Shown: positions 1-61,591 of the stretch, piece by piece | Numbering within the stretch: the first letter of the stretch is position 1 | Layout: each line of letters starts with the position of its first letter | Origin: Clytia hemisphaerica | Taxonomy: Eukaryota; Cnidaria; Hydrozoa; Leptothecata; Clytiidae | NCBI GenBank assembly: GCA_902728285.1 | Contig: CACVBU010000463.1 | Coordinates: 1,426,001 to 1,490,000, forward strand | Length of the DNA: 64,000 bases | Direction: 5' to 3' | The notes under the pieces: model-generated | Seen by the model: only the letters and a program-made list of their open reading frames with translations | What the model was told of the DNA's origin: nothing | Database searches by the model: none | Translations under genes and position numbers: made by a program

Positions 1-269
1 GAATCATCTTCATCAAATCTTTCATTCTCTCCAAAATCTTCATTTGCTTCGTTATATCCATGAAAACCATCATATCCTGCTAAACTTTCATTGGCAACTG
101 GTTGTTTCTTCCCCTTTCTTTTTTGTTGTTTTTTATCGAAAACATGTTTCCTTTTTTCAGCCCAAGATTTCTCACGATTTGAAATCATTTGGTTCATATC
201 GATGTTATAATGTTGACAATATTCTTCGATCAGTTCGTTAAAATATTTGTACGATTCGCACAATATTTT
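1..269 (-). CDS. Modular gene exon 5 (type I), cut by window edge
   Basis: Begins after TTTCTAG. Module A reads KYFNELIEEYCQHYNID, preceded by CES as in exon 3. The frame stays open to base 1, through a Lys-rich and then acidic stretch. Its module B, if present, lies outside the window. Confidence 0.7.
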
Positions 270-3200
270 CTAGAAAGTAAAATCAAATAACGTATTACTT
301 CGATTCGAATGGGCGTTTATTAAAATTTTTTTTAGAAGGGGGCGTTTATAAAATAATTTAAAACCAAGGTCACTTTAACAGTGTGAATTATCGTCAACTA
401 GAAATTTGTACGGGTCTCAATTTCATAGTTCATTTCGAAATGCTTGGAAAACCGTGAAATTATTACCTTTTTTTGATATTGTGAGTTTTGAACTTAATGA
501 GGGGTGTTTTTTGGATTCAACGCGATACGCTATTGGAACATAGACCCAACATAGAGGTATAAAGAAACAGGAGAAGTATGCTATTGTAACCAAGCTCGCC
601 CTACGATTAAACAAGCAACATGCTGAATGGACCTACCTAATAATTGTACAAAAATTCAGAATGGAAAAATAAAGCTTGTGTGTTGAATAATGTAAAATGG
701 TAAAAAGGAATTTCCCCAAATACGAAAATCACTTAAACCATTCAGGCCGAAAAAACCTTTTAAGCTGTTTTTGGCCCAAATTTGCCCAAATATATTTTTT
801 TTCGAAAAATCGGGCTCCGTCACATTTTAGGCATTGCCATTTTGCATCATTGTGCAGAAAATCAGAAAAAAATAATGAGTCAACTTTGAGAAAAGCTATA
901 TTTTCTTATTTTGTTAAAGAGAATTTCCCCAAAATACGAAAATCCGTCTTTTAAGGCGAATAAGAATTTTCCGGGAAAAACCACTTCAGCCATTCTTTAG
1001 AGAATCTTGCCCTCCATCTTTGTACAAAAAATCAGAAAAAAGTTTTTGGCCCAAATTTGCCCAAATAAATATTTTTTCGAAAATCGGGCTCCGACACATT
1101 TTAGGCATTGCCATTTTGCATCATTGTGCGAAAAATCAGAAAAAAATTATGAGTCAACATTGAGAAAAGCTATATTTTCTTATTTGGTTAAAGGGAATTT
1201 CCCCAAAATACGAAAATCCGTCTTTTAAGGCGAATAAGAATTTTCCAAGAAAAACCACTTCAGCCATTCTTTAGAGAATCTTGCCCTCCATCTTTGTACA
1301 AAAAATCAGAAAAAAGTTTTTGGCCCAAATTTGCCCAAATAAATATTTTTTCGAAAATCGGGCTCCGACACATTTTAGGCATTGCCATTTTGCATCATTG
1401 TGCGAAAAATCAGAAAAAAATTATGAGTCAACATTGAGAAAAGCTATATCTTCTTATTTGGTTAAAGGGAATTTCCCCAAAATACGAAAATCCGTCTTTT
1501 AAGGCGAATAAGAATTTTCCAAGAAAAACCACTTCAGCCATTCTTTAGAGAATCTTGCCCTCCATTTTTGTACAAAAAATCAGAAAAAAGTAATGACAGG
1601 ATTTTGCACAAAGTCCAAAAAACCCTATTTTTAGGCAGTTTTTGGCCCAAATTTGCCCAAATATATTTTTTTTCGAAAATCGGGCTCCGTCACATTTTAG
1701 GCATTGCCATTTTGCATCATTGTGCAAAAAATCAGAAAAAAATAATGAGTCAACATTGAGAAAAGCTATATTTTCTTATTTTGTTAAAGAGAATTTCCCC
1801 AAAATACGAAAATCCGTTTTTTAAGGCGAATAAGAATTTTCCGGGAAAAACCACTTCAGCCATTCTTTAGAGAATCTTGCCCTCCATCTTTGTACAAAAA
1901 ATCAGAAAAAAGTAATGACAGGATTTTGCACAAAGTCCAAAAAACCCTATTTTTAGGCAGTTTTTGGCCCAAATTTGCCCAAATAATTTTTTTCTCAAAA
2001 GATCGGGCTCCGTCACGTTCTGGGCATTGCCATTTTGCATCATTGTGCAAAAAATCAGAAAAAACTAATGAGCCAATCCTGAGAAAAGCTGGTAACAGAC
2101 GAACGAACGAACGAACGAACGAACGAACGAACGAACGAACGAACGAACGAACGAACGAACGAACGAACGAACGAACGAACGAACGAACGAACGAACGAAC
2201 GAACGAACGAACGAACGAACGAACGAACGAACGAACGAACGAACGAACGAACGAACGAACGAACGAACGAACGAACGAACGAACGAACGAACGAACGGAC
2301 GGACGGACGGACGGACATGGGTTAATTTATAGAACCTCCGCCGGGGTACCCGGAGGTAGGTCAAAAAAGTTACGATGTATGCATGCTCGATGAGCTCTTT
2401 TATCCATAGATGAAATCTTATTGGCTCATTTAAGCTTTAGACATTAGATGAGACGAGATTCATTGTTTCTGACATCAGTGTAAGAAAATATTTGGACTAA
2501 AAAAGGCCTGTAAACTTGGCAATCCTTCATCAAATGAACAGATTTTTCGATCAATGTTTTCTTTAAGGTGAACTTTATTGCTTGATACTTTCCTCCAAAA
2601 TTCTCCAGCGACTTTATGTCTACAAATTGAGTCTGAAATCGTGTGTGCTTAAAAAAAACTTTTCATTTTCTGGCTTGAGAAAATATCTTTTCAAAACAAA
2701 ATTGAACAGATAGCGAAATGAAACATAAAATTATCTAATTTTCGTATATTAAAAGGCTAGAATCTTCAATACTGATTATTAGAATGTTCAGAGCAAACTT
2801 GAGTTCTACTAAAAAGTCTTATTTCATCGGGCGAGCTTAGAATTTCTTTTGATAATTTTATAAAAGAAATCAAAAGACTTTAACGACCAATTACCGACAC
2901 ATTCAACTCCTGCTTTTCTTTATACCTCTATGATTGGAACCTTATTTTGTCTTCTCATTATTATTCAAGTTAGGGCTGTAGCAACGGATCAAAATCATTT
3001 TGTATATTAAAAGGATACAATCATTATCGTATATCTAAGTTTTCCTTCATATTATACTTCCTTACAGCTACCTGTTTCAAATAATGACCCCTTCTAGATG
3101 GGAAGCGTTTATTCGAAAGGGTGTTTCTTTGGGAGGGGGGGGTTCTTTAATGAATTTTCCTCAAAAGGAGGGGCGTTTATTCGAGGGGCATTATTTTGAA

Positions 3201-6200
3201 GTAAAACGTTCTCCAAAGTGTGATGGTTTGTCAGCGCATTTAGATAAATTCTTTTGAGAGTGGATTCTGCGTTGGAAGCAAAAAAGTTTTAACGGCGAAA
3301 AAGAATGCAGTTATATTATTATTTAATTTTTCCAAGGGAAAAAATTTGCACACTCAAAGTGAATGGACTTTTTTAAGTCAATAAATATCAAAATCGCAAT
3401 CCAACAGAATCCAAATCAATAAAATCACAAATAACAAAGTTTTGACTTTTCTGTCATATATAGGATTTTTTTTGAAGCTGGGGTAGATGGGGAAGGGTTG
3501 AAAAATACTATATATTTTAAATTCGAATACTCTTTTTGTATAAGAACCTGTAAATTTTTAATGAGGCTCAGCTGTTCTTATTTCTTTTGGCGATTTGAGA
3601 CTCAGAAATTTGGTTCTTATGTTCTTATTTATATGGTGAAATTGTGGTATATTGGGATTTATACCCAATTTTACTACTTTGACCCCAAAATTGCTTGAAA
3701 TTGAGTAATTCCGGGCTCCGCATTGTACTTGCATTGTTCTTATATTTTGGCGATTTTGAGCCTTATTGTTCTTATAAGAGAAAAAGAGAGTAGACATTTT
3801 TTTAGTTGATAGCAGCTATCAAGAGCTGCTCTTTCCTAGAGTTTTTGATGGTCGATTTTACAGCCGGTTGCAATGGATTAAAAAAATGTCAATCTTTTTG
3901 TGAAGGTGGCTATAAATTACAAAGTTTCGAGCCAACCAGGGGCTAAACAAAAATTGCATTGCAATAAACCGTGAAAAAAATTAACAGCGTTAGCCTTCAC
4001 TTAATTAATTAGCGTAAAAATATTATTTTGCTTACATGTGTAGTTATAGGGTTGTGCTTCTGAACTGCTTTCTTTTGATCTTGTTTGAATTTTTCGCGTT
4101 TCCTTTGGCAATCTTTGAACACATCGATCGGTATCGTATCTTTCATTTCTAAATCTCTGTACAATTGCATAAAATGAAGTGGTTCTTTACTTCTCGGCAG
4201 TCTATTCCAATCAATCCCAGACCCCACATGAACATCTTTGGCCAGTTGCATACATCCATTGGGATGCTTCTTTGGATCGATTTCGCTTTCGTTTTCGAGA
4301 AGTTTCATTGGGTCGATGTTGTTTTCAACACAATATTGTTCAACTAATTCGTTGAAGAGTCTGTTGGCTATTTCAACCATCTAGATAGAGACAGAAAAGG
4401 TTGATTTGACTTTTACGGAGCAACAATATGTGCCAATCACATTTTTTGACACAAAAGATTAAGTGGAATCACTGATCAGTAAACAAATTAATAAGAAGAG
4501 GGTAGTAATTGTATAAAAGAATGTAATTGAATGAAAAGTTTGTCCTTTCTATTAATTAAAGGTTTTTAAATAGTCGAACGTGCGCAACGCACTGGGCTCA
4601 ACTTCAGTGGCTTCAAATCATTCATAGGCCCAATTGTAAACCCCCAGATATTCACCCAATGAACAAGTGTGCCAAATCCCAACCAAATCCGATCATTTTG
4701 GAGGCCTGTAGACTGCTCCAAAGCTTTAGCCTCGTTTTGGCGAAAAACTCGTTCCCAGAACCCAAAAATCAAAATTTTTAAAAAATACAAAAAGCTCCCC
4801 CAGATATTCACCCAAGGAACAAGTGTGCAAAATTTCAGCCAAATCGAACAATTTTTGAAGTCTCCAGGCTGCCCCAAAGTTTTAGCCTCGTTTTGGCGAA
4901 AAACTCTTGCCCAGACCCCAAAAATCAAAATTTTCAAAAAATGAAAAAAACACCCCCAGATATTCACCCAAGGAACAAGTGTGCAAAATTTCAGCCAAAT
5001 CGAACAATTTTTGAAGTCTCCAGGCTGCCCCAAAGTTTTAGCCTCGTTTTGGCGAAAAACTCGTGCCCAGGCCCCAAAAATCAAAATTTTCAAAAAATGA
5101 AAAATACACCCCCAGATAATCATCCAAGGAACAAGTGTGCCAAATTTCAGCCAAATCGAACAATTTTTGAAGTCTCCAGGCTGCCACAAAGTTTTGGGAC
5201 ATACACACAGACAGACACAAAGACACACACATTCTCAGATTCTAACTCAACTGAAGTTGAGAATAAGAGTGATAACGTTTGCTTATTCGTCAATTTTAAT
5301 GTAATGACGTGGATGTGGAACAAGATTGATCAGAAAGAGGAAAAGAAAAACAATTTTTTGCTTAAGCGAGGCCAAATTTAGTTGGTTGTTTTACGGGCCA
5401 AGCTACCCAAAAATGAGGGTCGGTCGGTCGGCCAAAAAATAAAAATAAAAGTAGAATTTCATCTATAAAATCTCCTAAAAAGGTAGGGAAATCTTAACAA
5501 AAAATGCAAAATAGAAAATAAAAAGGCACAGAAAGTCTGAATTTATGGATAAATTGAAAAATTAAATTCTCGGTCTCGCCTTATAAAAGCATAATTTAAC
5601 AATAGCAAGACACTGTCCTGATATGAAATATGTGTCTATTATAAAACGGGAACACTTATGTAAAAACAAAACCTTTAAGGGCAGTTAGTAGTAGTACTAG
5701 GTTTTTCTCTGTAATAAATTTCTTGCTCGTTGGAATCGGAAACCCCGTTTTATCTAAAGGCACTTACTTAACGTGCATATATCTCTAAAAAAATAGTTGA
5801 AAAATATTTCAAAGTACCCATGTATCAAATTTAAAACGTCACTGATTCCTTCCTCTTTTGAATCGATTTTTTTTTTTCAACGGTACTAATTAACAATAAA
5901 TGGTCGTAGAAAAAGCGAGAAATGAAACAAAAATTTAGTGAATGGACCTGAATGGACTAGTCGTCACGGATAATTACAGTCCATTTCACGGTCGAAATGG
6001 ATCATGGGTAATCCGGACCGCCGCACTATTACAAAAACTTTCTGTTGGTTTAAGCTTTTGGATGTTTTTGCGTCTAGCCAAGGGGAAGCCGTTATGGAGG
6101 CACAATTAGTCCTCAGATTACCCATGATTCATTTCGACTGTAAAAACGGCCAATGACGAGTGTTCTGTTGTTACATATTTATTTTTTTTAAGAAACTAGT

Positions 6201-8998
6201 TTTATTCTTCAAAAATCGGCCTTTTGAGCCTTAAATGTTTCTTACATGTTTATAAACTTTGTCAAGCTTTAAAGGACGCATGTCGTTAATACAATAGTCT
6301 AATAAACTTTCCTATCTTCTATAGTGATTTTCTGACTTTCTCAAATGTTTCTAGCTGTTATGTCAGTATTTTTCTGGAACTTCATGTTTCTTAGTTTTCA
6401 AGCATTCTGAGCCTCATGTTTCTTAAAAGTGTGTTTCCCAGCTGACACGCAACGTTGTTTCAGCATTTATCTAACGTTCACAACGTCCACATAACGTTGA
6501 ATGAACGTTGAATGAACGTTGAAACAACGTTGTGTGACAGCTGAGTTCTTAAAAAAAAACGTGTACCTTTCGTCTTGCAATCTTTTTCTCGGCTCCCTTC
6601 GAGGCTTTCTTCAATTCTTTCCTCAAGTTCTTCTCTAAAAACTTTCGCTGCTCGTATTGAAAAGCGACAATAACACTTTCAGGCACAATACCAGATAATT
6701 CTTCAAGCTGATAAAATGTCATTATTTCAAGAGGTCTTTGGCTTCGTAAAACTTTATCTGAATTAAGATTTATATTTATAGCCTGATTCATGGTCTGTTG
6801 GCTGATTAAAGGTTTTGTGTCGAGTTCGTGGCAATTAGCATTCGAGGTGGAAGGCATATCAAGGTTCTTTGATGTCTGACCGGAGCTTCTCTCAAAACAC
6901 TTGAAACCTTCTGTTTGAGAATCCGATGTAAAATCGTGGCTAAAATTTCCAGTAAAAGATGTAGAGTTTGCTGCAGAAGCAGAGGAGCTTGAATATTTTG
7001 GTTTATCATTATTTTGGTGGCTTCTCATTGTCTTCTTATCCTTTCTGTTGTTTTTATCTTCGATGAACGATTTCAAATCAATGTCATGTTGGGTGCAATA
7101 AGTCTCAATCATTTCGTTGAAATATTTGAATGATTCGCATGACACTCTCTAAAAAATATTAAGAACATCATTAGGTACAAAATGAAAACTATGTAATAAA
7201 AAAAACTTCTGAACCTAACGTTTGAACCAATTGGGGTTAAGAGATCAAAAGGCGTACTCTCAAGCCAAGCCAACATTTCCATTTATAAAGTGTATAAGAG
7301 GGTCGAAAATCGAAAATTTCGCCATAGTTACATACCCTCTGGCCTTATACACGCTCTTTTATAAGAATAGTGTTTTTCCATTTCATCATGGATATTCTTA
7401 GCTTTTTGGGGAAAATACTCCTAAACTATCATTACGGTATTCTTAGGTTAGGATCCAAATTCAACTTAAATTTTACATGTAATACATACATAAAGAATAA
7501 AATTGCATTTTTGTGAAAGTTTTGAGCCTTATTTGGAAATAAATAGCAATTTACAGTTGAAAATGCTCTGAAAAAGGCATTCTTAGGTTCTGCTGCCAAA
7601 CCCTATGATGGTGATATTCTTAGCATTATTCTTAATTCTTTCGGGCCGAGTTCATCATGAATATTCTTATAAAGTATATTCTTATATAAGAAAAGCGCGT
7701 AGTCACTATATTTATATTTTCATTTCTTACCCTTTCAGTAATTGGAGTTTTGTCAGTCAATTCGTCAGCCTTTTGACGGTACCAAGCCAATCTTTTATTC
7801 TCACAATCTGCGATGAACTTTTTCGGACAAGCCCATTTAAATTCAGCTCTACTATACATTTTCATCAAATCAATAGGGACTTGACTTCTTGGATATTTAT
7901 GCAGATCTAATGTGATATTATCGATTCTATTGTCACGATTTTTTTTTTCTCGTCCGTTTTCGAGCAGTGTCAATGGATCGATACCATTTTGTCGGCAATG
8001 ATTTTCGATCGATTCGTTGAAGATTTTGTTGGATAGGTTATTTTTCTAAAATAAGATTTAAACTAGAAGTTCAAACAAAGTTAAAATTTCTGACGATTCA
8101 TTACCAGCTTATCAAGGTGGCGGAGGGGCTGGGCTATTCATAGTTCAGAAAGGGTCACTAATCCCCCCCTATCCTGAGCTACCCATTACCCTAGGTTCTC
8201 CCCATTTTAAAATTTTGATGCTACCCCTTTTAAAATCCTAACATGATTCTACCGGTGAAAAAGGAAAGGCTGAAGGCATTGCATTGTATTTGTAAATCAA
8301 AAATTAAAAATCAAACTTCGAATTTGGGAAAACATAAAAAACACACCACTGACAGCCTATAAACCCTCCCCCTTTTTAGATGAACTAAGGGAATACGATC
8401 TTCAAGATGTATTTTGACATAAAAAAATCTTCTTAGATTTCACCGGGAAATTTAGCACTTGGATAGGATCAGACTTTAAGAAGGATACAAAATTTTGGTT
8501 GAAATAAATTTTGAAAATTAGAATAAATCTTACTTCTTTCCAATCAGATTTGTCTTTTGACTTCGATTCTTTTCTAGTTTTACGTAAAGTCAAACTCTTT
8601 TCCCTTTTAAAAGCCGCAACAACATTTTCTGGTATAATTCCATGCAGTTCATACCCCTTGTACATCCCCATTGAATGCAAAGGTCGTTGTGATCGTAAAA
8701 CGCTGCCATACTCCGAAGCTGGATGAGATTTAACATTTTCAGCCGAAGGCAAATCGTCCACTTTTGATATGTCCGTTTTTTCTGTACTTTCGTCAAATGA
8801 TACAGAATTGATTTTGTTCGATTCTGATATATTCACAATTTCAGTACTGTCATTGGTACTATTTGCTTCAATAGTTTCGTCCCTCTTCGAAACTTTTGGT
8901 TCATTTTCTTCTTCTTTCATAAAATCCTCATTGAGTTTTCGTTTTCCAACTAAAGTTGATGTTTCTCCTGCCGCAACTTTATTTAAATTGTCATCCAT
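1..8998 (-). CDS. Modular repeat protein gene, five exons seen, continues past window start
   Basis: I do not recognise this protein. The exons (minus strand, 5' to 3') are 8998-8534, 8045-7731, 7148-6567, 4380-4036 and 269 to the window edge. All four junctions have AG/GT borders and phase 0, giving at least 658 residues in one frame. Two short modules recur. Module A is a 17-residue block of the form xxFNExxExxCxxxxID (exons 2-5). Module B has an RSQ-P core followed by Met, Tyr and a Pro-x-x-[VF] block (exons 1-4). Exons 3 and 5 share CES-x-KYFNE, exons 2 and 4 share IDPxxLLEN, exons 1 and 3 share LRSQRPL, and exons 2 and 4 share DC-x-x-KR, so two exon types alternate. Exon 1 is acidic and Ser/Thr-rich with a basic GKRK patch, which could suggest a nuclear protein; that is inference. 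The introns are packed with MITEs. Confidence 0.78.
300..420. repeat. Fragment of GGGCGTTTATT dispersed repeat
   Basis: Contains GGGCGTTTATT twice. Related stretches lie at 3075-3205 and 58020-58370. It is intronic. Nothing else is seen between 270 and 628. Confidence 0.5.
629..2362 (+). mobile_element. GGACCTACC-ended element, copy 1
   Basis: Starts TGGACCTACC and ends GGTAGGTC, giving inverted ends. The interior is a tandem array with a period of 274 bp (near-identical starts at 1007 and 1281) carrying the recurring phrase CGGGCTCCGTCACATTTTAG. The right end holds a GAAC microsatellite and then a short hairpin around GGGGTACCC. It has no transposase, so it is non-autonomous. It lies in intron 4 of the modular gene. 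Copies 2 and 3 are at 21271-23547 and 40113-41252. Confidence 0.7.
2098..2316. repeat. (GAAC)n microsatellite grading into (GGAC)n
   Basis: About 49 GAAC units followed by about five GGAC units. It is the long version of the short GAAC/GGAC tract at the same place in the two sister elements. Long reading frames across it (TNER and VRSF repeats) are an artefact of the tetramer. Confidence 0.95.
2363..3527. other. Intron sequence, no gene seen
   Basis: AT-rich intron DNA. The only recognisable item is a dispersed GGGCGTTTATTCG repeat fragment at about 3075-3205. Confidence 0.4.
3528..3795. mobile_element. TTCTTAG-rich MITE (family D), copy 1
   Basis: The ends are inverted (CTTTTTGTATAAGAAC and CTTATAAGAGAAAAAG). 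The interior carries repeated TTCTTA motifs. Related copies are at 6176-6564, 7347-7702 and 40196-40457. Confidence 0.5.
4036..4380 (-). CDS. Modular gene exon 4 (type II)
   Basis: 115 codons between CTATCTAG|ATGGTT and ACACAT|GTAAGC. Module A reads RLFNELVEQYCVENNID with IDPMKLLEN; module B reads LPRSKEPLHFMQLY, followed by VFKDCQRKR. An ATG happens to be the first codon of the exon, but the acceptor and shared phase argue that it is internal. Confidence 0.75.
4573..5261 (+). mobile_element. CTCAACTTCAGT-ended element, copy 1
   Basis: Starts GTCGAACGTGC...CTCAACTTCAGT and ends ACTGAAGTTGAG. It contains four tandem units of about 156 bp beginning CCCCCAGATATTCACCC at about 4639, 4797, 4953 and 5109. 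No true coding signal is present; reading frames follow the repeat period. It is intronic to the modular gene. Confidence 0.7.
5365..5586. mobile_element. GGCGAGAC-type MITE, degraded copy
   Basis: The left end resembles, and the right end mirrors, the better copy at 57600-57984 (GCGAGGCC...GGTCTCGCC), with the same GGTCGGTCGGTCGG internal stretch. It is intronic. The rest of 5587-6175 shows nothing I can assign. Confidence 0.45.
6176..6564. mobile_element. TTCTTAG-rich MITE (family D), copy 2, with nested insertion
   Basis: Its right end (TTCTTAAAAAAAAACGTGTA) abuts exon 3 of the modular gene. A second MITE is inserted in it at 6439-6543. A related stretch without the insertion lies at 17868-17912. 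Confidence 0.5.
6439..6543. mobile_element. AACGTTG foldback MITE, copy 1
   Basis: Palindromic, with CAGCTG at both ends and repeated AACGTTG inside. TTC flanks both sides (GTGTTTC before, TTCTTAAA after), and the related empty stretch at 17868-17912 reads GTGTTTCTTAAA. This supports a 3-bp target duplication. Copy 2 is at 36181-36273. Confidence 0.65.
6567..7148 (-). CDS. Modular gene exon 3 (type I)
   Basis: 194 codons. Module A reads KYFNEMIETYCTQHDID. A Ser/Asn-rich linker follows, then module B LRSQRPLEIMTFY with the GIVPESV block, and a Lys-rich tail. The donor AAG|GTACAC overlaps the end of an inserted MITE, whose terminal CGTGTA supplies most of the intron side of the splice site. 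Confidence 0.75.
7347..7702. mobile_element. TTCTTAG-rich MITE (family D), copy 3
   Basis: Imperfect inverted ends (ACGCTCTTTTATAAGAAT and its rough mirror at about 7680-7700) with TTCTTAG motifs inside. It lies in intron 2 of the modular gene, just downstream of the exon 2 donor. Confidence 0.45.
7731..8045 (-). CDS. Modular gene exon 2 (type II)
   Basis: 105 codons between TTTTAG|AAAAAT and AGG|GTAAGA. Module A reads KIFNESIENHCRQNGID and module B reads YPRSQVPIDLMKMY, followed by FIADCENKR. It resembles exon 4 more than exon 3. Confidence 0.75.
8534..8998 (-). CDS. Modular gene exon 1 (start exon)
   Basis: Encodes residues 1-155 from the ATG at 8998-8996. It holds a low-complexity acidic region with a GKRKLNED patch near residue 20 and one module B (LRSQRPLHSMGMY) near the end. 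It lacks module A. The donor is GAA|GTAAGA. A possible upstream acceptor (TTTTAG about 50 nt before the ATG) would allow a 5' UTR intron. Confidence 0.75.
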
Positions 8999-10320: not shown

Positions 10321-11115
10321 GTCGAACGTGCTAACCGCACTGGCTCAACTTCAGTATCTTTGAAATCATTCGTAGGCCCAATTGTAAACTTAATGACTTA
10401 AGAAAAATTATAGCATTTTGGGTTTTAGCCTCGTTTTGGTAAAAAACTCGTCCCCAGGCCCCAAAAGTTAAAATTTTGAAAAAATGAAAAAAACACCCCC
10501 AGGGATTTGCCCAAGGATCAAGTGTGCAAAATTTCAGCCAAATCGGACCATTTTTGAAGTCTCCAGCCTGCCCCAAAGTTTTAGCCTCGTTTTGGCGAAA
10601 AACTCATCCCCAGGCCCCAAAAATCAAACTTTTGAAAAAATGAAAAAAACACCCCCAGGGATTTGCCCAAGGATCAAGTGTGCAAAATTTCAGCCCAATC
10701 GGACCATTTTTGAAGTCTCCAGCCTGCCCCAAAGTTTTAGCCTCGTTTTGGCGAAAAACTCGTCCCCAGGCCCCAAAAATCAAAATTTTGAAAAAATGAA
10801 AAAAACACCCCCAGAGATTTGCCCAAGGATCAAGTGTGCAAAATTTCAGCCCAATCGGACCATTTTTGAAGTCTCCAGCCTGCCCCAAAGTTTTAGCCTC
10901 GTTTTGGCGAAAAACTCATCCCCAGGCCCCAAAAATTAAAATTTTGAAAAAATGAAAAAAACACCCCCAGGGATTTGCCCAAGGATCAAGTGTGCAAAAT
11001 TTCAGCCCAATCGGACCATTTTTGAAGTCTCCAGCTTGCCCCAAAGTTTTGGTGACAGACACACACACACACAGACACACAGACATTCTCAGATTCTAGC
11101 TCAACTGAAGTTGAG
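10321..11115 (+). mobile_element. CTCAACTTCAGT-ended element, copy 2
   Basis: Same ends as copy 1, with four 156-bp units (CACCCCCAGGGATTTGCCC at about 10494, 10650, 10807 and 10963) and a short CA tract at about 11056. It is inserted into the dispersed repeat that flanks it on both sides, so the order of insertion can be read. Confidence 0.7.
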
Positions 11116-11532: not shown

Positions 11533-12388
11533 ATAATTTAAATAACATTTTAATGGTCATTCTGTATATATTTTTCGTGTAAACAATATTTCGACCTACT
11601 TGGTGCAGGTCTTCGTCAGGTCTAAACAATACAAACGGTTGAAGGCGCTACCTTGACTTTTTTTGACGTCAAAAAAGTCAATGTAGTGTCTTCTCCCTAA
11701 TGTGCGAGAGCATTGGCTTCCAAAACCTAGATGTCACATACTGACCATCGTCTAAATTAAGACCATGGTCACTATGTGGCGCCGTCTGACGGAATTGGAT
11801 TTCCAATGCCTCTCGCACTTTTCTATCAAATTTGTTCTCTTCAGTCTTTAAAAGCCTAGCTTCGTTCCAATTAAGTCCTTGGGTACAGTCTTTAGCATGG
11901 TTAGTTATACCCGAAATGTCCCATTTTTCATCTTCAACGTTCTTTTTGTGTTGGCTGATACGTGTGGATATCTTTAACCCGGTCTCGCCAACATATCTTT
12001 TACCACATTCGCATTCTATCATATACACACCAGGGTGACTGTTAGGTGGTAGTCGGCTTTTGTTCATTTTAAAGACTGAAGAGAACAAATTTGATAGAAA
12101 AGTGCGAGAGGCATTGGAAATCCAATTCCGTCAGACGGCGCCACATAGTGACCATGGTCTTAATTTAGACGATGGTCAGTATGTGACATCTAGGTTTTGG
12201 AAGCCAATGCTCTCGCACATTAGGGAGAAGACACTACATTGACTTTTTTGACGTCAAAAAAAGTCAAGGTAGCGCCTTCAACCGTTTGTATTGTTTAGAC
12301 CTGACGAAGACCTGCACCAAGTAGGTCGAAATATTGTTTACACGAAAAATATATACAGAATGACCATTAAAATGTTATTTAAATTATA
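11533..12388. mobile_element. Penelope-like element fragment with inverted arms
   Basis: Two nearly identical arms in opposite orientation, 11533-11853 and 12067-12388, surround a spacer of about 210 bp. The minus strand reads a GIY-YIG nuclease domain across the left arm and spacer. Each arm also carries a CTGACGA...GACCT...AGGTC-GAAA hairpin (12301-12332 on plus, mirrored at about 11588-11619), a motif often found near Penelope-like ORFs. No reverse transcriptase is present, so this is a truncated, inverted copy. The near-identity of the arms points to recent origin. Confidence 0.8.
11678..12055 (-). CDS. GIY-YIG endonuclease domain, Penelope-like C-terminus (partial)
   Basis: The frame runs from MNKSRLPPNSHPGVYMIEC to a stop near 11678. 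The GVY...YVG pair with Gly-Glu-Thr is the GIY-YIG core; CECGK between the two motifs is typical of Penelope-like nucleases. An Arg-Ile-Ser-x-His-Lys segment and a conserved Asn/His-rich stretch follow. In these retroelements the domain nicks DNA for insertion. Here it lacks the reverse transcriptase that should precede it. The in-frame ATG lies at the arm/spacer border, so the start is not biological. The C-terminal third is repeated on plus at 12060-12242 as part of the inverted arm. Confidence 0.8.
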   Translation of the reverse strand, partial: RLPPNSHPGVYMIECECGKRYVGETGLKISTRISQHKKNVEDEKWDISGITNHAKDCTQGLNWNEARLLKTEENKFDRKVREALEIQFRQTAPHSDHGLNLDDGQYVTSRFWKPMLSHIREKTLH

Positions 12389-12979: not shown

Positions 12980-14332
12980 CTAAACCGATCTATCGTCTAC
13001 AATTACAAAGATCTTGATTCGTAGCGCAATGGATGTTCCATCCATGCCTTGGTTAGTTCTTCTTTGAACGCTTTGATGCAAGTAGCACTTGTCACATTTT
13101 GTGCGGGTTTTTGCTCCACAAATCCGGCAGCGCAATCTTTGCTCTTTATTTGGAGCGTCGTCTTTTGTGAGCTTAGCTTCTGAATGTCGACCTTGAATAT
13201 GAATTAGTGTAATTGTTTAAATATTCACTTTTTCTAAATAATGTGACACGATCATACTAAAACACTATTTGACAAGCTAAACAGATCCAAAATACAGATT
13301 AAAAATCTAAAAAGTAATTATGTGACTGTAGTTTAAACAAGCAAGAGGGAAAGATGAAACCTTTTAACGCTTTTCAGGAATTTAGGAGAAACTAATTTTT
13401 TTATTACTTTTACCTTTACGAGGTGATAACACGCTCATTGCAACTTTTCTTCTTTTTGAGACATTTGATGATGGGTTTCGTAACAGTTTGTCTTTATTAT
13501 TGTGCATTCTGCATTTTGCGTACCAGTTACGAATAACAGCAAATCTGAACTCGCTGCTCGAATATAGCCGTTGCTTTTCCGTGATGGAATGAAGATTTTT
13601 CCAGATTGTGAAGGTATTGCACAATGCGTATGTCTCAATTAACGAATCAAGCACTCGGCTCTGTTTGCGAACACTACGACACTCGCTGTTGTAGTATGCT
13701 TGATGTTGGTTTGTACGGTCAACCATCCCATAAATCTGGCGATACAAAACCACTGAGGGTGTAGTCTGAATGGCCTGTCCGTTCACCTCAATTGAAGACC
13801 AGTTTTCCCTGGCAGAATCAACATCATTGTCAAGGAAGCAAACTGCATTATTATCGTTCCAATATGTCAAATTCAAATTTTCGTGATGCAGGGACTGTGA
13901 GTATCCTCTGACAAAGGATTTGGTATTCTTTAGAAATGAGCTGTGTTTCTTTGGAAGATGGGCCGTATTTCCACGAACAGTAGCAATGATTCTGGTGTTC
14001 CATATGCTAACTGCATCTTTCAAAAGTTGAATAGTTGGAAATCCACTATCCATCACCACAAGTCTTCCCATATGTTTTAACCCCTCTAAAAGTTGCTCAA
14101 CGGTGTTGTAATTTTTTCCAGAGCCCGTGTTTGTGAACGTTTGCTTGCCGACCTTTACCAAGTGGTTGTATGTGTAATATCCACCAAGTTCTCCCTGATC
14201 AGCAATTTTATTGACGGTCCACCCCATTCTTATCTTAAATTTGTTTCGTTTACTCTTGCTGCAGATACGCCCCTCATCAATACACATTTTAAATCCAGGA
14301 GACCAAAGCGTTTGCGATTTACGTTTTATCAT
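12980..14332 (-). pseudogene. PiggyBac-type transposase, catalytic and C-terminal part
   Basis: Exons 14332-13414 and 13179-12980 join in frame (AAAG|GTAAAA, then TTCAG|AAGCT; intron 234 bp). The first carries the DDE core: Asp in MCIDEGRI, Asp in VVMDSGFP, and Asp in GMVDRTNQ. The second encodes the Cys-rich C-terminal finger CRICG...KCDKCYLH. The chemistry would be cut-and-paste transposition at TTAA. The N-terminal dimerisation region is missing here; a fitting N-terminal piece lies at 20345-20745 on the same strand. The frame continues upstream of the first Met, and an acceptor-like CCAG lies 14 nt before it. Whether this is a broken element or a retained domesticated gene cannot be told from sequence alone. 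Confidence 0.85.
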
Positions 14333-14483
14333 ATCTACCCCCGCCTGGATGTTTTGTAGAGGATGATAATTTAATTTACAGTAATATATGACTCAGGTCT
14401 ATCGACCTCTATGAAATAATCATGCTTAACATTTTACAATCTTACAGTTGTAGGCGCACGGTGGGCCTTTTAACCAGTCGTCT

Positions 14484-15485: not shown

Positions 15486-17782
15486 ATAGTGTTATATAGT
15501 GTGTACTAGTGTTCTATGCGTTCTAGTGTTCTATACGTTCTAGTGTTCTATACGTTCTAGTGTTCTATACGTTCTAGTGTTCTATACGTTCTAGTGTTCT
15601 ATACGTTCTAGTGTTCTATACGTTCTAGTGTTCTATACGTTCTAGTGTTCTATACGTTCTAATGTTCTATGCGTTCTAGTGTTCTGTGCGTTCTAATGTT
15701 CTATGCGTTCTAGTGTTCTATGTGTTCTAGTGTTCTATGTGTTCTAGTGTTCTATACGTTCTAGTGTTCTATACGTTCTAGTGTTCTAGTGTTCTATGCG
15801 TTCTAGTGTTCTATGCGTTCTAGTGTTCTATACGTTCTAGTGTTCTATGCGTTCTAGTGTTCTATACGTTCTAGTGTTCTATGCGTTCTATACGTTCTAG
15901 TGTTCTATGCGTTCTAGTGTTCTAAACGTTCTAGTGTTCTATGCGTTCTAGTGTTCTATGCGTTCTAGTGTTCTATACGTTCTAGTGTTCTATACGTTCT
16001 AGTGTTCTATGCGTTCTATGCGTTCTAGTGTTCTATGCGTTCTAGTGTTCTATACGTTCTAGTGTTCTATGCGTTCTATGTGTTATAGTGTTCTATGCGT
16101 TCTATGCGTTCTAGTGTTCTATGTGTTCTAGTGTTCTATAAGTTCTAGTGTTCTATACGTTCTAATGTTCTATGCGTTCTAGTGTTCTGTGCGTTCTAAT
16201 GTTCTATACGTTCTAGTGTTCTATGTGTTCTAGTGTTCTATGCGTTCTTTGCGTTCTAGTGTTCTATGTGTTCTAGTGTTCTATAAGTTCTAGTGTTCTA
16301 TACGTTCTAGTGTTCTATGCGTTCTAGTGTTCTATGCGTTCTAGTGTTCTATACGTTCTAGTGTTCTATGCGTTCTAGTGTTCTATACGTTCTAGTGTTC
16401 TATACGTTCTAGTGTTCTATACGTTCTAGTGTTCTATGCGTTCTATGTGTTCTATGCGTTCTAGTGTTCTATACGTTCTAGTGTTCTATACGTTCTAGTG
16501 TTCTATACGTTCTAGTGTTCTATGTGTTCTAGTGTTCTATACGTTCTAGTGTTCTATACGTTCTAGTGTTCTATACGTTCTAGTGTTCTATGCGTTCTAG
16601 TGTTCTATACGTTCTAGTGTTCTATGTGTTCTAGTGTTCTATACGTTCTAGTGTTCTATGCGTTCTATTGTTCTATACGTTCTAGTGTTCTATGTGTTCT
16701 AGTGTTCTATACGTTCTAGTGTTCTATGTGTTCTAGTGTTCTATACGTTCTAGTGTTCTATACGTTCTAGTGTTCTATACGTTCTATACGTTCTATACGT
16801 TCTAGTGTTCTATGCGTTCTAGTGTTCTATACGTTCTAGTGTTCTATACGTTCTAGTGTTCTATGCGTTCTAGTGTTCTATGCGTTCTAGTGTTCTATAC
16901 GTTCTAGTGTTCTATACGTTCTAGTGTTCTATACGTTCTAGTGTTCTATACGTTCTATACGTTCTAGTGTTCTATGCGTTCTAGTGTTCTATACGTTCTA
17001 GTGTTCTATACGTTCTAGTGTTCTATACGTTCTAGTGTTCTATACGTTCTAGTGTTCTATACGTTCTAGTGTTCTATACGTTCTAGTGTTCTATACGTTC
17101 TATACGTTCTAGTGTTCTATACGTTCTAGTGTTCTATACGTTCTAGTGTTCTATGCGTTCTAGTGTTCTATACGTTCTAGTGTTCTAGTGTTCTATGCGT
17201 TCTAGTGTTCTATACGTTCTATACGTTCTAGTGTTCTATACGTTCTAGTGTTCTATACGTTCTAGTGTTCTATGCGTTCTAGTGTTCTATACGTTCTAGT
17301 GTTCTATGTGTTCTAGTGTTCTATACGTTCTAGTGTTCTATGCGTTCTATTGTTCTATACGTTCTAGTGTTCTATGTGTTCTAGTGTTCTATACGTTCTA
17401 GTGTTCTATGTGTTCTAGTGTTCTATACGTTCTAGTGTTCTATACGTTCTAGTGTTCTATACGTTCTATACGTTCTAGTGTTCTATGCGTTCTAGTGTTC
17501 TATACGTTCTAGTGTTCTATACGTTCTAGTGTTCTATGCGTTCTAGTGTTCTATGCGTTCTAGTGTTCTATACGTTCTAGTGTTCTATACGTTCTAGTGT
17601 TCTATACGTTCTAGTGTTCTATACGTTCTATACGTTCTAGTGTTCTATGCGTTCTAGTGTTCTATACGTTCTAGTGTTCTATACGTTCTAGTGTTCTATA
17701 CGTTCTAGTGTTCTATGCGTTCTAGTGTTCTATGCGTTCTAGTGTTCTATATGTTCTAGTGTTCTATACGTTCTAGTGTTCT
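15486..17782. repeat. 17-bp satellite array (TTCTATACG + TTCTAGTG)
   Basis: Around 130 units alternate a 9-mer (TTCTATACG, or TTCTATGCG/TTCTATGTG) with an 8-mer (TTCTAGTG). Occasional runs of two or three 9-mers break the alternation. A block of about 0.68 kb is duplicated: the rare CGTTCTATTG occurs at 16661 and again at 17343, with matching neighbours, and the copies differ by one 9-mer. It has no coding content. Confidence 0.95.
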
Positions 17783-36625: not shown

Positions 36626-39600
36626 ATGAAGAAGTTTGAAAGATCAAAATTCTTTTTGCTCTGCTTTCTTACGCTTTATATTCAATACATCGGTGCTAAA
36701 TTTTATTCAACACATTCGATCAAGCAACCAGACACCAATTGTTTGGTAAAATTTTTGGAATCAAAAAGGAACTCACTGACTGAGTGTATCTCACGATGTC
36801 GAATAAAAGGACGAAGAAATTTGATGGTTGACTACAGATGTTATTGTGTACCTCATGATGAAAAAATTGAGGAGAATTGCAAGATTGTTGAATCTGAGCC
36901 AGGAGAATCTGGTGGTAACAGCTATCTTTACCAATGTAAGTACAATGTATCATTGTATGTTTTTTTTTTCTCAAATGTTAAAAATGTTTCAAATCTGCCA
37001 AAACTAGATTTTTTGCTTCGCAAAAATTACCTCTAAAGCTCTAAGGCGAATAATAAATGATTTGAGTGCTCAAATTTCATAATTTCGAAATTTTTCGTTT
37101 TTTGGAGAGATTTGAGTAGTTATAGAGACTCGTTTATAAAGACTTTATATTCAGCTCAAAGCTCAAGAAAATGAGTTCAAGTTATGGAGAGACTCAAGCT
37201 TTAGAGCTTCGGGGTCATAGATAGAAGCAGTTGACGAGCTATCTTTTTTCAAAATATATGTTGACATTTTCCAAGAGACATTTTTCTTCTTAAAAGTGGC
37301 CAAAAATCATTTTCTAGGGGAGCAGATTTTCTTTAAAGTATATATGTTGGCCAATTCTAATAGCTGATGACGTCATTTCTGGCCAACATTTCCATTTTTC
37401 TAGGAGAAGGCGAATAATTTAAAATATCTAGCTGGGTGTACAGATATGATTTTCTCGGACAGGATGAACAGATATCTTAAAAATAACAAATAGTCAAATC
37501 CTTAACTGTTCTCATACTTTTGTCAGAGTGAATTTTTCAAGGTGATGGATCCAATTTTATAGGAGAGACTACCTGTGTTTTTGGGTTTTTGGAACAACGG
37601 ATCGATATTTCTAGAAATGATATTTTTTCAATATTTGACCAACATATCAAAATTTCCAGCTCGACTATGCCTTGTGCCAATAGATGTTTAAAAAAAGGTC
37701 TTCGCCTTTGGCATAGAAAGTCATTCGTGGATTTGTATTTCAGCTTCGATTCATGGTCCGTGGGAATTGATTACTAATCAGTCGATTTGTTATGGTTCTC
37801 GCGATGACAGCTTTGCAAAATTCAACTTACCAAGAGATGGGTACATTGCAAGTTTTCGCATGGTTCATATCAGTGGCTATGTTGGATGTCACTACAATAA
37901 TGGTGGTTATTGGGGATGTAACAATTATTTCGATGCCAATGCTATCATGACTGTTATCACTGGTAATTTTTGTTACTTAACTAAAGAGGTTCTTGGGAAA
38001 AAAAGTTAAGAATTAATTTTTGTAGAGGGCTTGTTCCCACTGTCGATTTTTAGTTATTGATTTTTTAACTATAACGGTGGAATTCCTTGGCGAGTTCACC
38101 TCAGCCACTGAAATCAAGACTTACCTCCAAAAGTTTTTACAACAGAATATACTAACAAACGATAAATGTGAGGTATATTCTGGTTTATAGAACAACCCCC
38201 AGCCCCCGGAAATATGAGCCCAAAATCCGTCCCCAGTGGAGGTAAACCCCTCAGATTTCGCCCCCATTGGAAAAATTGAAGTATCAATATTCCCACTGTA
38301 GAGTTTTAGATGTAAATTTGCAGTCCCCACTGGAATTTTTGTATTGAAAACAATAGAAATCAATATCCCCAGTCATGAAATAAAAGGGATTTTCTACCCT
38401 CACTGAAGAATTCTCCCTCAATTTCATCTCCACCATTTTCACTGGGTCAGTGAGACAGGGGTGTTATAGAGTAGTGAAGAAAAGAGGACCAATAGAATTG
38501 TTAGAAGAGGGGATTAATTATTAAATATGTTGTTTTACGATGATAGGAAGAAGTTCATTGAACCGAAAATATACAACAGAGACATAATGGATAAACTGAA
38601 ATATGCTCCTTATCACTCCCTGTCAAAGGTTTGAATTCTTAATCCCTGAATCCCCAAATCCCCGAATTAAAAACACTAAAGGTCAAAGCAAAGGTTACTT
38701 TTAAGCACGTCGTGTCGCCCCGCCTTCTGTGGTTGTTGTTCCAATATGACATGAGCAAGTTTTAAATTTTGGTTCGTATAAGACTGTAAGAATGCAAGGG
38801 ATAATTGAACAACTCAAAAACTTGTTTGCAATTTGTAGATATGTACATTAATGCCATTTTGATTTAGGATTTAACTTTTCTAAAACACAAAAAGCCTACA
38901 TTGATTTTTTTCCTAGAACAGACCAACAGTTTTTCCAATATAATTTCGAAGCCTTTTATGGAATTTGATTAAGGTGAATTTTCGGGGCTATCAGATATTT
39001 CTTTAGGTTACCACAGAACTCGAATTAAAACTTGGAAATAAGTCGAACGACGTTAACCCTTAGAATACGAATGTCGTAATTTTATGGTTTGAAAAGATCG
39101 TTTAACCTGATACTCCGTCTTTCGATCATAACTCCTGACCACTTGAGTTTTGAGGAAAATAACCCAGTTCTATTTTATATAGCTGAGAAAGAAAGCTTTC
39201 TAACGATATAAAAGTTGATATCCTAGCCTTCTTTTCGGACCCAGAAATAGCCTTAGAAAAATATATAAATTTGGAATAAAAACTAATAATTTTTTTGGCT
39301 TTTTCAAACTTTGGTGTGCACGCTAAAGTTCCTTAACCCTATTCGTCTTAGGTGGGGGAGGGTTATTTTCATACCAACCGAAAACTTTTAGTAATAGTTC
39401 CTGATAATGTTTGCTTTGTCAACGAAATCTTGTGATTTTCATATAACATCAATATAAAACACATTTCAACCCCTAATTATTGATTTTCAGACCTTAGTGC
39501 ATGATGACATTTTTGATAAAGTGTCATGAAAATATGACACATTTTTGCATAATTGCACTTTATTGCACTTTAAACACTTTAAATATATCATTTAAATAGA

Positions 39601-45167: not shown

Positions 45168-52118
<6,951 letters not shown>

Positions 52119-52227
52119 CGTTTTTCCTTGAGTAAGTTTCTTTGTACTGTGTGTGTCTTGCTTGCTTCCCAAGTCTTCTTGTTTTAGGCTTGGTGAAACT
52201 GTTTGATAATATTACTGAACCAACTTT

Positions 52228-59650: not shown

Positions 59651-60865
59651 TCATACGGTTGAATATTCATCACCAATAGGCCCATAATATTTAATGTCAA
59701 TTTCAAAATCGGCATCTTCGAAGTTTTCCTCAAAATAATCAACCGTTTTAATTCTCATTCCTTTCATAATTTCTCGAAATTCCGGAATATTCACTTTCGT
59801 TAAATCTAAAGCTTCCAGATAAACCAGATTGACAGGTAATGTCTTGAACCACGAAAACTCTTCAACTGACAGCTTGTAATTGACGTCATAATTTGTTTCT
59901 ATGGAGAATTCCTTCAAGTACTTCATACGATGTAGTATATCTACCATACTTTTTATGTTCCATTTTTCCACGGCAAAATTCCAAGTACTTATTGTTGTAA
60001 AAGGTAGATCAATGAGCTTCTCCATAGGTGGTAAGTTGCCTTTTTCAAAGTCTCCATGACCGAATGAGATATCTTTCAAATATTTCATTTGTCGAAATAA
60101 ATCAGCAAATTTCAACAAAGTGGGAACATCGTTCTCAATTCTCAAGCTGCGACTTTCAATTTTGGTAACTCTAATGTTTAATTTAACCATTAGCTCAATA
60201 TCCTTCAAAGTATACAAATAACTGCCGTCTTCATAAATAGGCTCCTTCAAGACCACCTTACACTTTCCTAAATGAGCAACCGTGCGAATGAAATCCTCAA
60301 CATTTTCTTCGTTAACAAAAATACAATCTACCACAAGAAAAGAAATCGAAAATTTGTCAGCAAACATTTTGAATTGGTCAAAAGTCCAACGATGTTGGGT
60401 ATATCGAAAACAATCATGATTAATAATCATTCTTTCAACATTGATGGACTTCATACATTCATACAACTGCATTATTTCCCCATTGTTGGTCATTTTGAAA
60501 GCGTTTGTGTTGACAACCACTGGTAGTTGTGTAATGAATCTTAGTTGAGATTGCTGAGCAGTTACAGCCTTTTCATAGTAGTTGACTGTGTCTATATGTA
60601 GGAGTTTCAAATGAGGTAGCATTGCGACTAATTCCAGCCATGAGCAACATGAGAGCTGCCGAGTATGTATTTCTCGTATGGGAAAACGCGAGATTTGCTG
60701 TACAAAATCCATATCTTTGTTGTGTCTGTTGAATCTGGGCTTTGACCACATCCGTTGGAGAGCGAGAGTACGAAGTTTCTTCGAAGTGAAAGATATTTGT
60801 TTGGCACTTTTTATATCAAGGTACGAAATGATGTTGCTGATTAGTTCATTTGGTAAATTATCCAT
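59651..60865 (-). CDS. F-box protein, 404 residues, single coding exon
   Basis: ATG at 60865. Residues 3-42 fit an F-box (LPNELISNIISYLDIKSAK, SFTSKKLRTLAL, then MWSKPRF), which in other proteins binds Skp1 in an SCF ubiquitin ligase. The remaining 360 residues look like irregular leucine-rich repeats (LELVAMLPHLKLLHID, MKYLKDISFG, MKYLKEFSIE, LPVNLVYLEALDL), a likely substrate-binding face. TTTTTATTTTCAG|G lies 26 nt upstream of the ATG, so either a 5' UTR intron or a spliced-leader acceptor precedes the coding exon. There are no internal stops, and the frame ends with a normal stop. Large F-box families are common in invertebrates; the exact family is not recognised. Confidence 0.88.
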   Translation of the reverse strand: MDNLPNELISNIISYLDIKSAKQISFTSKKLRTLALQRMWSKPRFNRHNKDMDFVQQISRFPIREIHTRQLSCCSWLELVAMLPHLKLLHIDTVNYYEKAVTAQQSQLRFITQLPVVVNTNAFKMTNNGEIMQLYECMKSINVERMIINHDCFRYTQHRWTFDQFKMFADKFSISFLVVDCIFVNEENVEDFIRTVAHLGKCKVVLKEPIYEDGSYLYTLKDIELMVKLNIRVTKIESRSLRIENDVPTLLKFADLFRQMKYLKDISFGHGDFEKGNLPPMEKLIDLPFTTISTWNFAVEKWNIKSMVDILHRMKYLKEFSIETNYDVNYKLSVEEFSWFKTLPVNLVYLEALDLTKVNIPEFREIMKGMRIKTVDYFEENFEDADFEIDIKYYGPIGDEYSTV

Positions 60866-61591
60866 CTTTTATATATTCTTACTTTAAGCCCTGAAAATAA
60901 AAACAGAAAGTCATCGAATCCAAAAAGAGCAAAACCAACATACATATCCCCAAATTTTGCAGAATTTGTACTTCTTTACACAATCCAATCCAATCCACCT
61001 TAAAATACCCCAGAGGCCGCTAATAACTCTAAACTGTAAAGGCTTGGGGACACTTGCTCAAAATTGATTTGAATCAATTTGCTACATTGTCCCAGGGACA
61101 AAAGTGAGATTTCACTTTTATTGGTAGAAAGAAAAATGGGATGGAGACACGAGAAAGCGTTTCAGGTTGGTGGGATGGAGCATGTTGCATTGCACCAACG
61201 TGAAAAAAACTTTTCGTGTCCCCAAGCCTTTACAGTGATTAAGTCTGGTGTTTTATGTTGGCAATCTTTTTTATTTTACTTGAGCTCGCAACGAATGCAT
61301 AGAGCTGGGTTCAGTCGCTTTATTAAGAATAAACAAAATCACGACCAAGTGACCAATATTGCGAAATGCAGGGGGGTCATGCAGTTACCATGACAGTTAT
61401 TAGCGAGTTTATATATTTGCGCTTTTGAGGACGGTAAAGTGACTGAAGCGATTTGGAATAACCCGTAATTCTGCCCCGCAAAATCGAGGACGGTAAAAGT
61501 GCTGATTTACCGTCGTCCTCAGTTGGTCATGATCTAGTCAAATTAGAACCTTACCGTCTCCGTCGCTGAAAACACACATACATAAACTCGG

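Follow-up and report, generated by a model that had tools for sequence, protein, structure and literature searches.

In the 64,000-nucleotide window analysed here, the whole stretch C325:1426001-1490000 of Clytia hemisphaerica contig CACVBU010000463.1 (called C325; window position p is C325 position 1426000+p, and negative positions lie left of the window), a complete five-exon gene encoding a 676-residue protein is predicted on the minus strand. This gene, known here from DNA alone and called gene 1, is likely to encode four tandem domains, each formed by a short module B followed by a short module A and interrupted by an intron. The four domains, and the tandem gene copies beside them, would have arisen by nested duplications.

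Gene model

The five exons are found where an initial annotation of this DNA had put them, in one gene running leftwards from position 8998 on the minus strand. Exon 1 begins with an ATG at 8998, with an in-frame stop just upstream, and exon 5 ends about 50 bases left of the window, at a TGA at -52 to -54 (C325:1425946-1425948). The four introns are all GT-AG and, as had been claimed, all in phase 0, which is thus the phase at every unit boundary. The length of each complete exon (1 to 4) is a multiple of three. Modules A are placed at exon starts and modules B at exon ends, and the exons are of two types, I and II. The features, with module positions taken from profile matches, are as follows.

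8534..8998, minus strand: exon 1 (type I), 465 bases, 155 codons; ATG, charged N-terminal region and module B1
8567..8713, minus strand: module B1 (LRSQRPL...GIIPE)
8046..8533, minus strand: intron 1, phase 0, splitting unit B1|A2
7731..8045, minus strand: exon 2 (type II), 315 bases, 105 codons; modules A2 and B2
7941..8045, minus strand: module A2
7758..7910, minus strand: module B2
7149..7730, minus strand: intron 2, phase 0, splitting unit B2|A3
6567..7148, minus strand: exon 3 (type I), 582 bases, 194 codons; A3, a long linker and B3
7041..7148, minus strand: module A3
6612..6767, minus strand: module B3
4381..6566, minus strand: intron 3, phase 0, splitting unit B3|A4, with a 156-base tandem repeat
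4036..4380, minus strand: exon 4 (type II), 345 bases, 115 codons; modules A4 and B4
4282..4380, minus strand: module A4
4066..4215, minus strand: module B4
270..4035, minus strand: intron 4, phase 0, splitting unit B4|A5, with a 274/322-base tandem repeat and an ACGA array
269 to -51, minus strand: exon 5 (type I), 107 codons; A5 and an acidic tail
162..269, minus strand: module A5

The introns hold repeats. In intron 4, positions 639-2313 are occupied by the tandem repeat of 274/322 bases and by a 54-copy ACGA array, and the stretch 639-2000 has long matches of about 86-97% identity scattered over many contigs (at least 103 matches, with the best 40 of 3143 candidates scored). Two sites have tandem repeats of a 156-base unit, 4640-5195 in intron 3 and 10422-11050 upstream of the gene, and their consensus units look alike.

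The two modules and their alternation

The motifs that had been named from the sequence are all found on the minus strand: CES-x-KYFNE in exons 3 and 5, IDPxxLLEN and DCxxKR in exons 2 and 4, and LRSQRPL with a GI[IV]PE block in exons 1 and 3. In BLASTP comparisons, exons of the same type match each other clearly, with expectation values (E) of about 1e-18 for exons 2 and 4, 4e-13 to 5e-13 for exons 1 and 3, and 2e-11 to 5e-11 for exons 3 and 5. A module is common to nine of the ten exon pairs. Each of these nine scores higher than its shuffle mean, and eight beat all 500 shuffles; in the case of exons 1 and 2, a single shuffle in 500 reached the score of the pair. The tenth pair, exons 1 and 5, has no common module and stays at chance level (275/500 shuffles).

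The modules are not chance similarities, since profile hidden Markov models built from three modules recover the fourth in all eight leave-one-out runs (E 1e-7 to 2.3e-13 among 1601 six-frame open reading frames of the window). The best unrelated open reading frame in any of these runs has an E of 0.13. Moreover, all 12 module pairs have ungapped blocks at least six standard deviations above shuffles, so that all units are homologous. The two exon types are also mutually homologous over both modules (between-type z-scores of 6.0 to 6.9), a relationship absent from the initial annotation.

The I-II-I-II-I alternation that had been described is borne out for A and B separately, by bootstrap and by likelihood. 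The quartet A2A4|A3A5 is favoured in 4981 of 5000 column bootstraps and B1B3|B2B4 in 4896 of 5000; the log-likelihood advantage of the alternating trees is 14.3 for A, 6.5 for B and 20.5 for the joined modules. Odd-numbered units are more alike than adjacent units are, and this alternation of both modules supports the duplication of a two-unit block, as had been suggested.

The domain as a probable B|A unit

The spacing of the modules was measured from the R of RS in B to the F of FNE in the next A, and likewise from A to the next B. From B to A it is 62, 62, 68 and 62 residues in gene 1 and in its counterpart on a second contig, C18, and 66, 62, 68 and 63 in the second C18 gene. From A to B it is 44, 125 and 54 (C325 gene 1), 49, 125 and 54 (C18 gene 1), and 48, 209 and 54 (C18 gene 2). 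Since the B-to-A distance is nearly fixed and the A-to-B distance variable, and since B comes first and A last in the gene 1 protein, B|A is the simplest reading of the domain. The exons, which had been taken as the natural units, are therefore probably not the right ones; the spacing points to a B|A unit split by an intron.

In the proposed arrangement, each domain would consist of module B and then module A, with a phase-0 intron cutting every domain between them, so that each of exons 2 to 4 would encode the last part of one domain and the first part of the following one. The protein would then have four tandem domains in the order alpha-beta-alpha-beta, joined by linkers of very different length, with a charged N-terminal region and an acidic tail. 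The net charge of the last 40 residues is -12, -12 and -10 across three genes.

The domain may be a small helical fold, with a helix in B after the P-E step and a helix-ID-helix arrangement in A. In the AlphaFold2 model of module B, a largely irregular segment leads into a long helix at residues 31-51 (mean predicted local distance difference test score, pLDDT, 79.7; predicted template modelling score, pTM, 0.40), and exon 4 is modelled as all-helical with low confidence (pLDDT 55.8, pTM 0.44). A Foldseek search of the PDB with the B model gave no match at E 10 or better.

Duplicated exons can also serve as alternatives, by mutually exclusive or cassette splicing that would yield proteins with differing domain sets. 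The internal exons of gene 1 are all symmetric in phase 0, and therefore any of exons 2 to 4 could be skipped in frame. The duplicates nevertheless alternate instead of being neighbours, they differ in length (155, 194 and 107 codons against 105 and 115) and have only about a third of their aligned residues in common, and skipping one exon would pair the B of one unit type with the A of the other. We consider this explanation unlikely. Gene 1 resembles the tandem exon duplications used for alternative splicing that are described by Ivanov and Pervouchine (2022, PMC9013439) in having exons duplicated within a gene, but unlike the cases set out there its duplicates alternate and differ in length, and alternative splicing is not indicated.

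Tandem copies left of the window

A further 199.4 kilobases (kb) of C325 were scanned to the left, which with the window makes 263.4 kb. Across this stretch the profiles found 11 A and 11 B modules past the inclusion cut-off, together with one weak B fragment; all of the modules found are on the minus strand, between 8998 and -39080. The gene of the window is probably the first of about three tandem copies on this contig.

The initial annotation had predicted that exon 5 would carry an LRSQRPL-type block just left of the window and be followed by a type II exon. Exon 5 ends at its TGA without a B module, and gene 1 has no further exons to its left, a point that the annotation did not contain. 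Both predicted elements do exist leftwards, but most likely in the next gene of the array, because the exon that holds the block has an ATG of its own and opens in a way that resembles exon 1. This second gene starts about 0.7 kb left of the exon 5 stop. Its B module, an LRSERPL block, spans -992 to -1126, and the beginning of its first exon scores 65 against exon 1, where the shuffle mean is 38 and one of 400 shuffles did as well. An A and a B of the exon 2 type follow at -2036 to -2326.

Gene 2 of C325 looks broken: stops interrupt its exon 3 between the two modules, and its exon 4 is split by about 9.7 kb of other sequence (-4013 to -13777). The C18 copy of this exon is uninterrupted, a presence/absence difference between the two clusters. 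Gene 3 (-17.9 to -39.1 kb) is partial, and the A and B of its exon 2 are in different frames.

It is very unlikely that the leftward array is instead one far longer gene, in which exon 5 would splice on into more type I and type II exons. More A and B modules do lie on the minus strand as far as -39 kb, for the most part alternating as in gene 1. Exon 5, however, is closed by its stop about 50 bases beyond the window edge, genes 1 and 2 of C18 stop at the same place, and the next B sits in the exon described above, with its own ATG and exon-1-like beginning.

Related copies elsewhere in the genome

The genome-wide protein search covered the 417 Mb assembly of 951 contigs with exon 3 as the only query, so the size of the family rests on that exon. 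It gave 24 matches at E up to 1 (30 candidates scored), located in the C325 cluster, at C18:2130632-2149561 on the plus strand, at C312:812739-813746 and, weakly, at C325:1499188-1500843.

The C18 cluster is collinear with that of C325 and contains a 94% identical copy of exon 3. At the DNA level, the two share 24 blocks of at least 150 bases with 70-96% identity (BLAST E up to 1e-20), the lower identities being matches between different genes. The C18 cluster could represent either the second haplotype or a segmental duplicate. Matching protein ends guided the placement of its exon ends, and the presence of GT and AG was checked afterwards. Gene 1 of C18 is open, with five exons, 682 residues and a stop ending exon 5 (107 codons); gene 2 is likewise open, with five exons, 759 residues and a stop ending exon 5 (110 codons), and its exon 2 acceptor is at 2139856. 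Both have phase-0 GT-AG introns. The third gene is partial, like gene 3 of C325. The C-termini at the end of exon 5 are alike (DRFSNFY, DRFFNFY and DRFSKYF).

The 658 residues of gene 1 inside the window are 11.6% lysine and 9.7% glutamate, a composition in which modules could appear by chance, but this has next to no probability given the leave-one-out recovery and the 11 A and 11 B strong-scoring modules in each of the two collinear clusters.

A more distant relative is found on C312, where the exon 3 matches have E values of 0.0016 and 0.2. The region C312:812651-813850 contains an exon with A and B followed by an exon with A, and these modules score 32 to 46 bits against the cluster profiles (E 2.5e-5 to 1.6e-9, with the search space set to ten million sequences). 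This relative suggests that the module family is older than the tandem cluster.

At C325:1499188-1500843 (minus strand), 9-11 kb right of the window, the weak exon 3 matches have E values of 0.04 and 0.1 and lie in open frames of 358 and 324 residues.

Probable order of the duplications

Module trees cover three genes on two contigs, with 21 A modules (one, truncated by the insert, was excluded) and 23 B modules (two fragments were excluded). In each tree the odd exons part from the even ones, with a support of 0.688 for A and with the split coinciding with the midpoint root for B. Six of the eight module positions form one group across genes; the A of exons 2 and 3 and the B of exons 1, 2 and 4 do so with support of 0.60 to 0.97. 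From these trees, duplication of the unit was most likely first, followed by that of the pair and then by that of whole genes. An ancestral unit would have duplicated once to give alpha and beta, the alpha-beta pair would then have duplicated to give four units, and the whole gene would later have undergone two or more rounds of tandem copying, with some of the copies then decaying.

A break point of the pair duplication was sought outside the modules, in the introns and within the coding part of exon 3. The introns of the two gene halves share only short stretches. In three genes, 12, 359 and 480 of 1000 shuffles are as good as the match between the exon 1 N-terminal region and the linker inside exon 3. 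When that linker is compared with the exon 5 tail, the corresponding numbers are 995, 299 and 10, and for the linkers of exons 2 and 4 against each other they are 834, 712 and 895.

Selection

Between the C325 and C18 copies of gene 1 (676 codons), the synonymous distance (dS) is 0.095 and the non-synonymous distance (dN) 0.037, with a dN/dS of 0.39; by exon, from 1 to 5, the ratio is 1.22, 0.58, 0.44, 0.09 and 0.52. For the two C18 genes 1 and 2, which are 52% identical, dN is 0.372, dS 0.987 and dN/dS 0.38, with exons ranging from 0.23 to 0.49. The gene as a whole is under purifying selection, and exon 1 is not clearly so; from its ratio, the N-terminal region would be loosely constrained.

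Strength of the nested-duplication explanation

Several observations weigh against the explanation by four B|A domains and nested duplications. The A of exon 4 forms a group across genes with a support of 0.053, and the A of exon 5 and the B of exon 3 are not groups in the trees. The exon 5 tails of genes 1 and 3 are unlike (230 of 400 shuffles are as good), and exon 1 has its dN/dS of 1.22 between the gene 1 copies, from 3 synonymous and 14 non-synonymous changes. Furthermore, B|A as a folding unit is a reading of the spacing and of a protein that starts with B and ends with A, and the pTM is low in both AlphaFold2 models. Even so, we judge the explanation as a whole to be probable, and its structural and evolutionary part slightly more so.

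Family searches and possible function

The modules had been said to match no known family, and searches of Pfam, NCBIfam and the PDB gave none to which they could be assigned. No single exon reaches a curated cut-off in Pfam or NCBIfam. The joined 658-residue protein scores 25.8 bits against DeaD_dimer (cut-off 23), but this is the sum of two short stretches, with 12.4 bits for the best single exon, and the candidate was rejected. In the PDB, short stretches of designed PPR proteins align to module A; this match was set aside, as it consists of ten repeats of 2-4 bits each and no PPR family is among the Pfam results. Short stretches of RNF31, Piwi-like protein 1 and ribosomal eL34 align to module B with E values of 0.27-1.7, and they were also rejected, their families being absent from the Pfam results. 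Other weak and mostly short PDB matches were to L0028 (E 0.08), PLS9-PPR (0.1), 4nrd (0.11) and ribosomal L30/L7 (0.19). A presumed likeness of module A to LisH or PAZ motifs was considered and dropped. Prokaryote and viral collections, both poor places to look for such a gene, gave no relative, and no mention of the LRSQRPL motif was found in the literature searched.

B|A may thus be an undescribed domain family with respect to Pfam, NCBIfam and the PDB, the collections searched, which included no animal protein collection. A broader proposal, to which we give somewhat less than even weight, is that this undescribed family has been amplified at the levels of unit, pair and gene in one lineage, keeping its intron in mid-domain and its internal exons as hybrids. 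If so, each gain or loss of a single exon would re-pair alpha and beta halves, and what maintains the alternation could be selection for matching halves, not history alone.

Regarding function, the predicted protein is rich in lysine, glutamate, serine and asparagine and has several KRK-like stretches; because of these and its lysine-rich character, its location is probably nuclear. It is conceivable, though rather doubtful, that it acts as a multivalent helical-domain adaptor whose alpha and beta domains bind different partners.

Other features of the window

The rest of the window contains the following matches in open frames.

11681-12130, minus strand: GIY-YIG nuclease match
13385-14392, minus strand: DDE_Tnp_1_7 transposase match
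45554-45910 and 51756-52211, minus strand: papain-type protease and I29 propeptide pieces
59654-60868, minus strand: F-box at the start of a 405-residue open frame

As a guess, the protease and propeptide pieces could be exons of one cathepsin gene. A further open frame, at 37692-38006, is reminiscent of cnidarian proteins; together with the genome size and the sorts of genes nearby, it points to an animal. A 2.3 kb satellite with a 17-base unit in about 138 copies occupies 15501-17782, within a strong AT skew.

Relation to known repeat proteins

The mode of growth proposed here is itself already well known. Bjorklund, Ekman and Elofsson (2006, PMC1553488) state that the expansion of repeats often involves several domains at once. 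Among repeat proteins overall they report two domains as the apparently commonest duplication unit, and for nebulin they describe growth in blocks of seven domains, accompanied by a recurring exon pattern. Because the two-domain unit is reported there as the commonest, the alternation in gene 1 would be the expected trace of a common process. The gene shares with the domain-repeat proteins of that paper the internal duplication of a multi-domain block; it differs from them in that its domain can be assigned to none of the families searched and in that every unit has an intron separating B from A.

The gene would therefore be a clean case of a repeat protein that grows by nested duplications, from one unit to two and four and then by whole genes. 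Its half-domain exon structure makes the matching of domain halves testable, and naming the domain would let other genomes be annotated.

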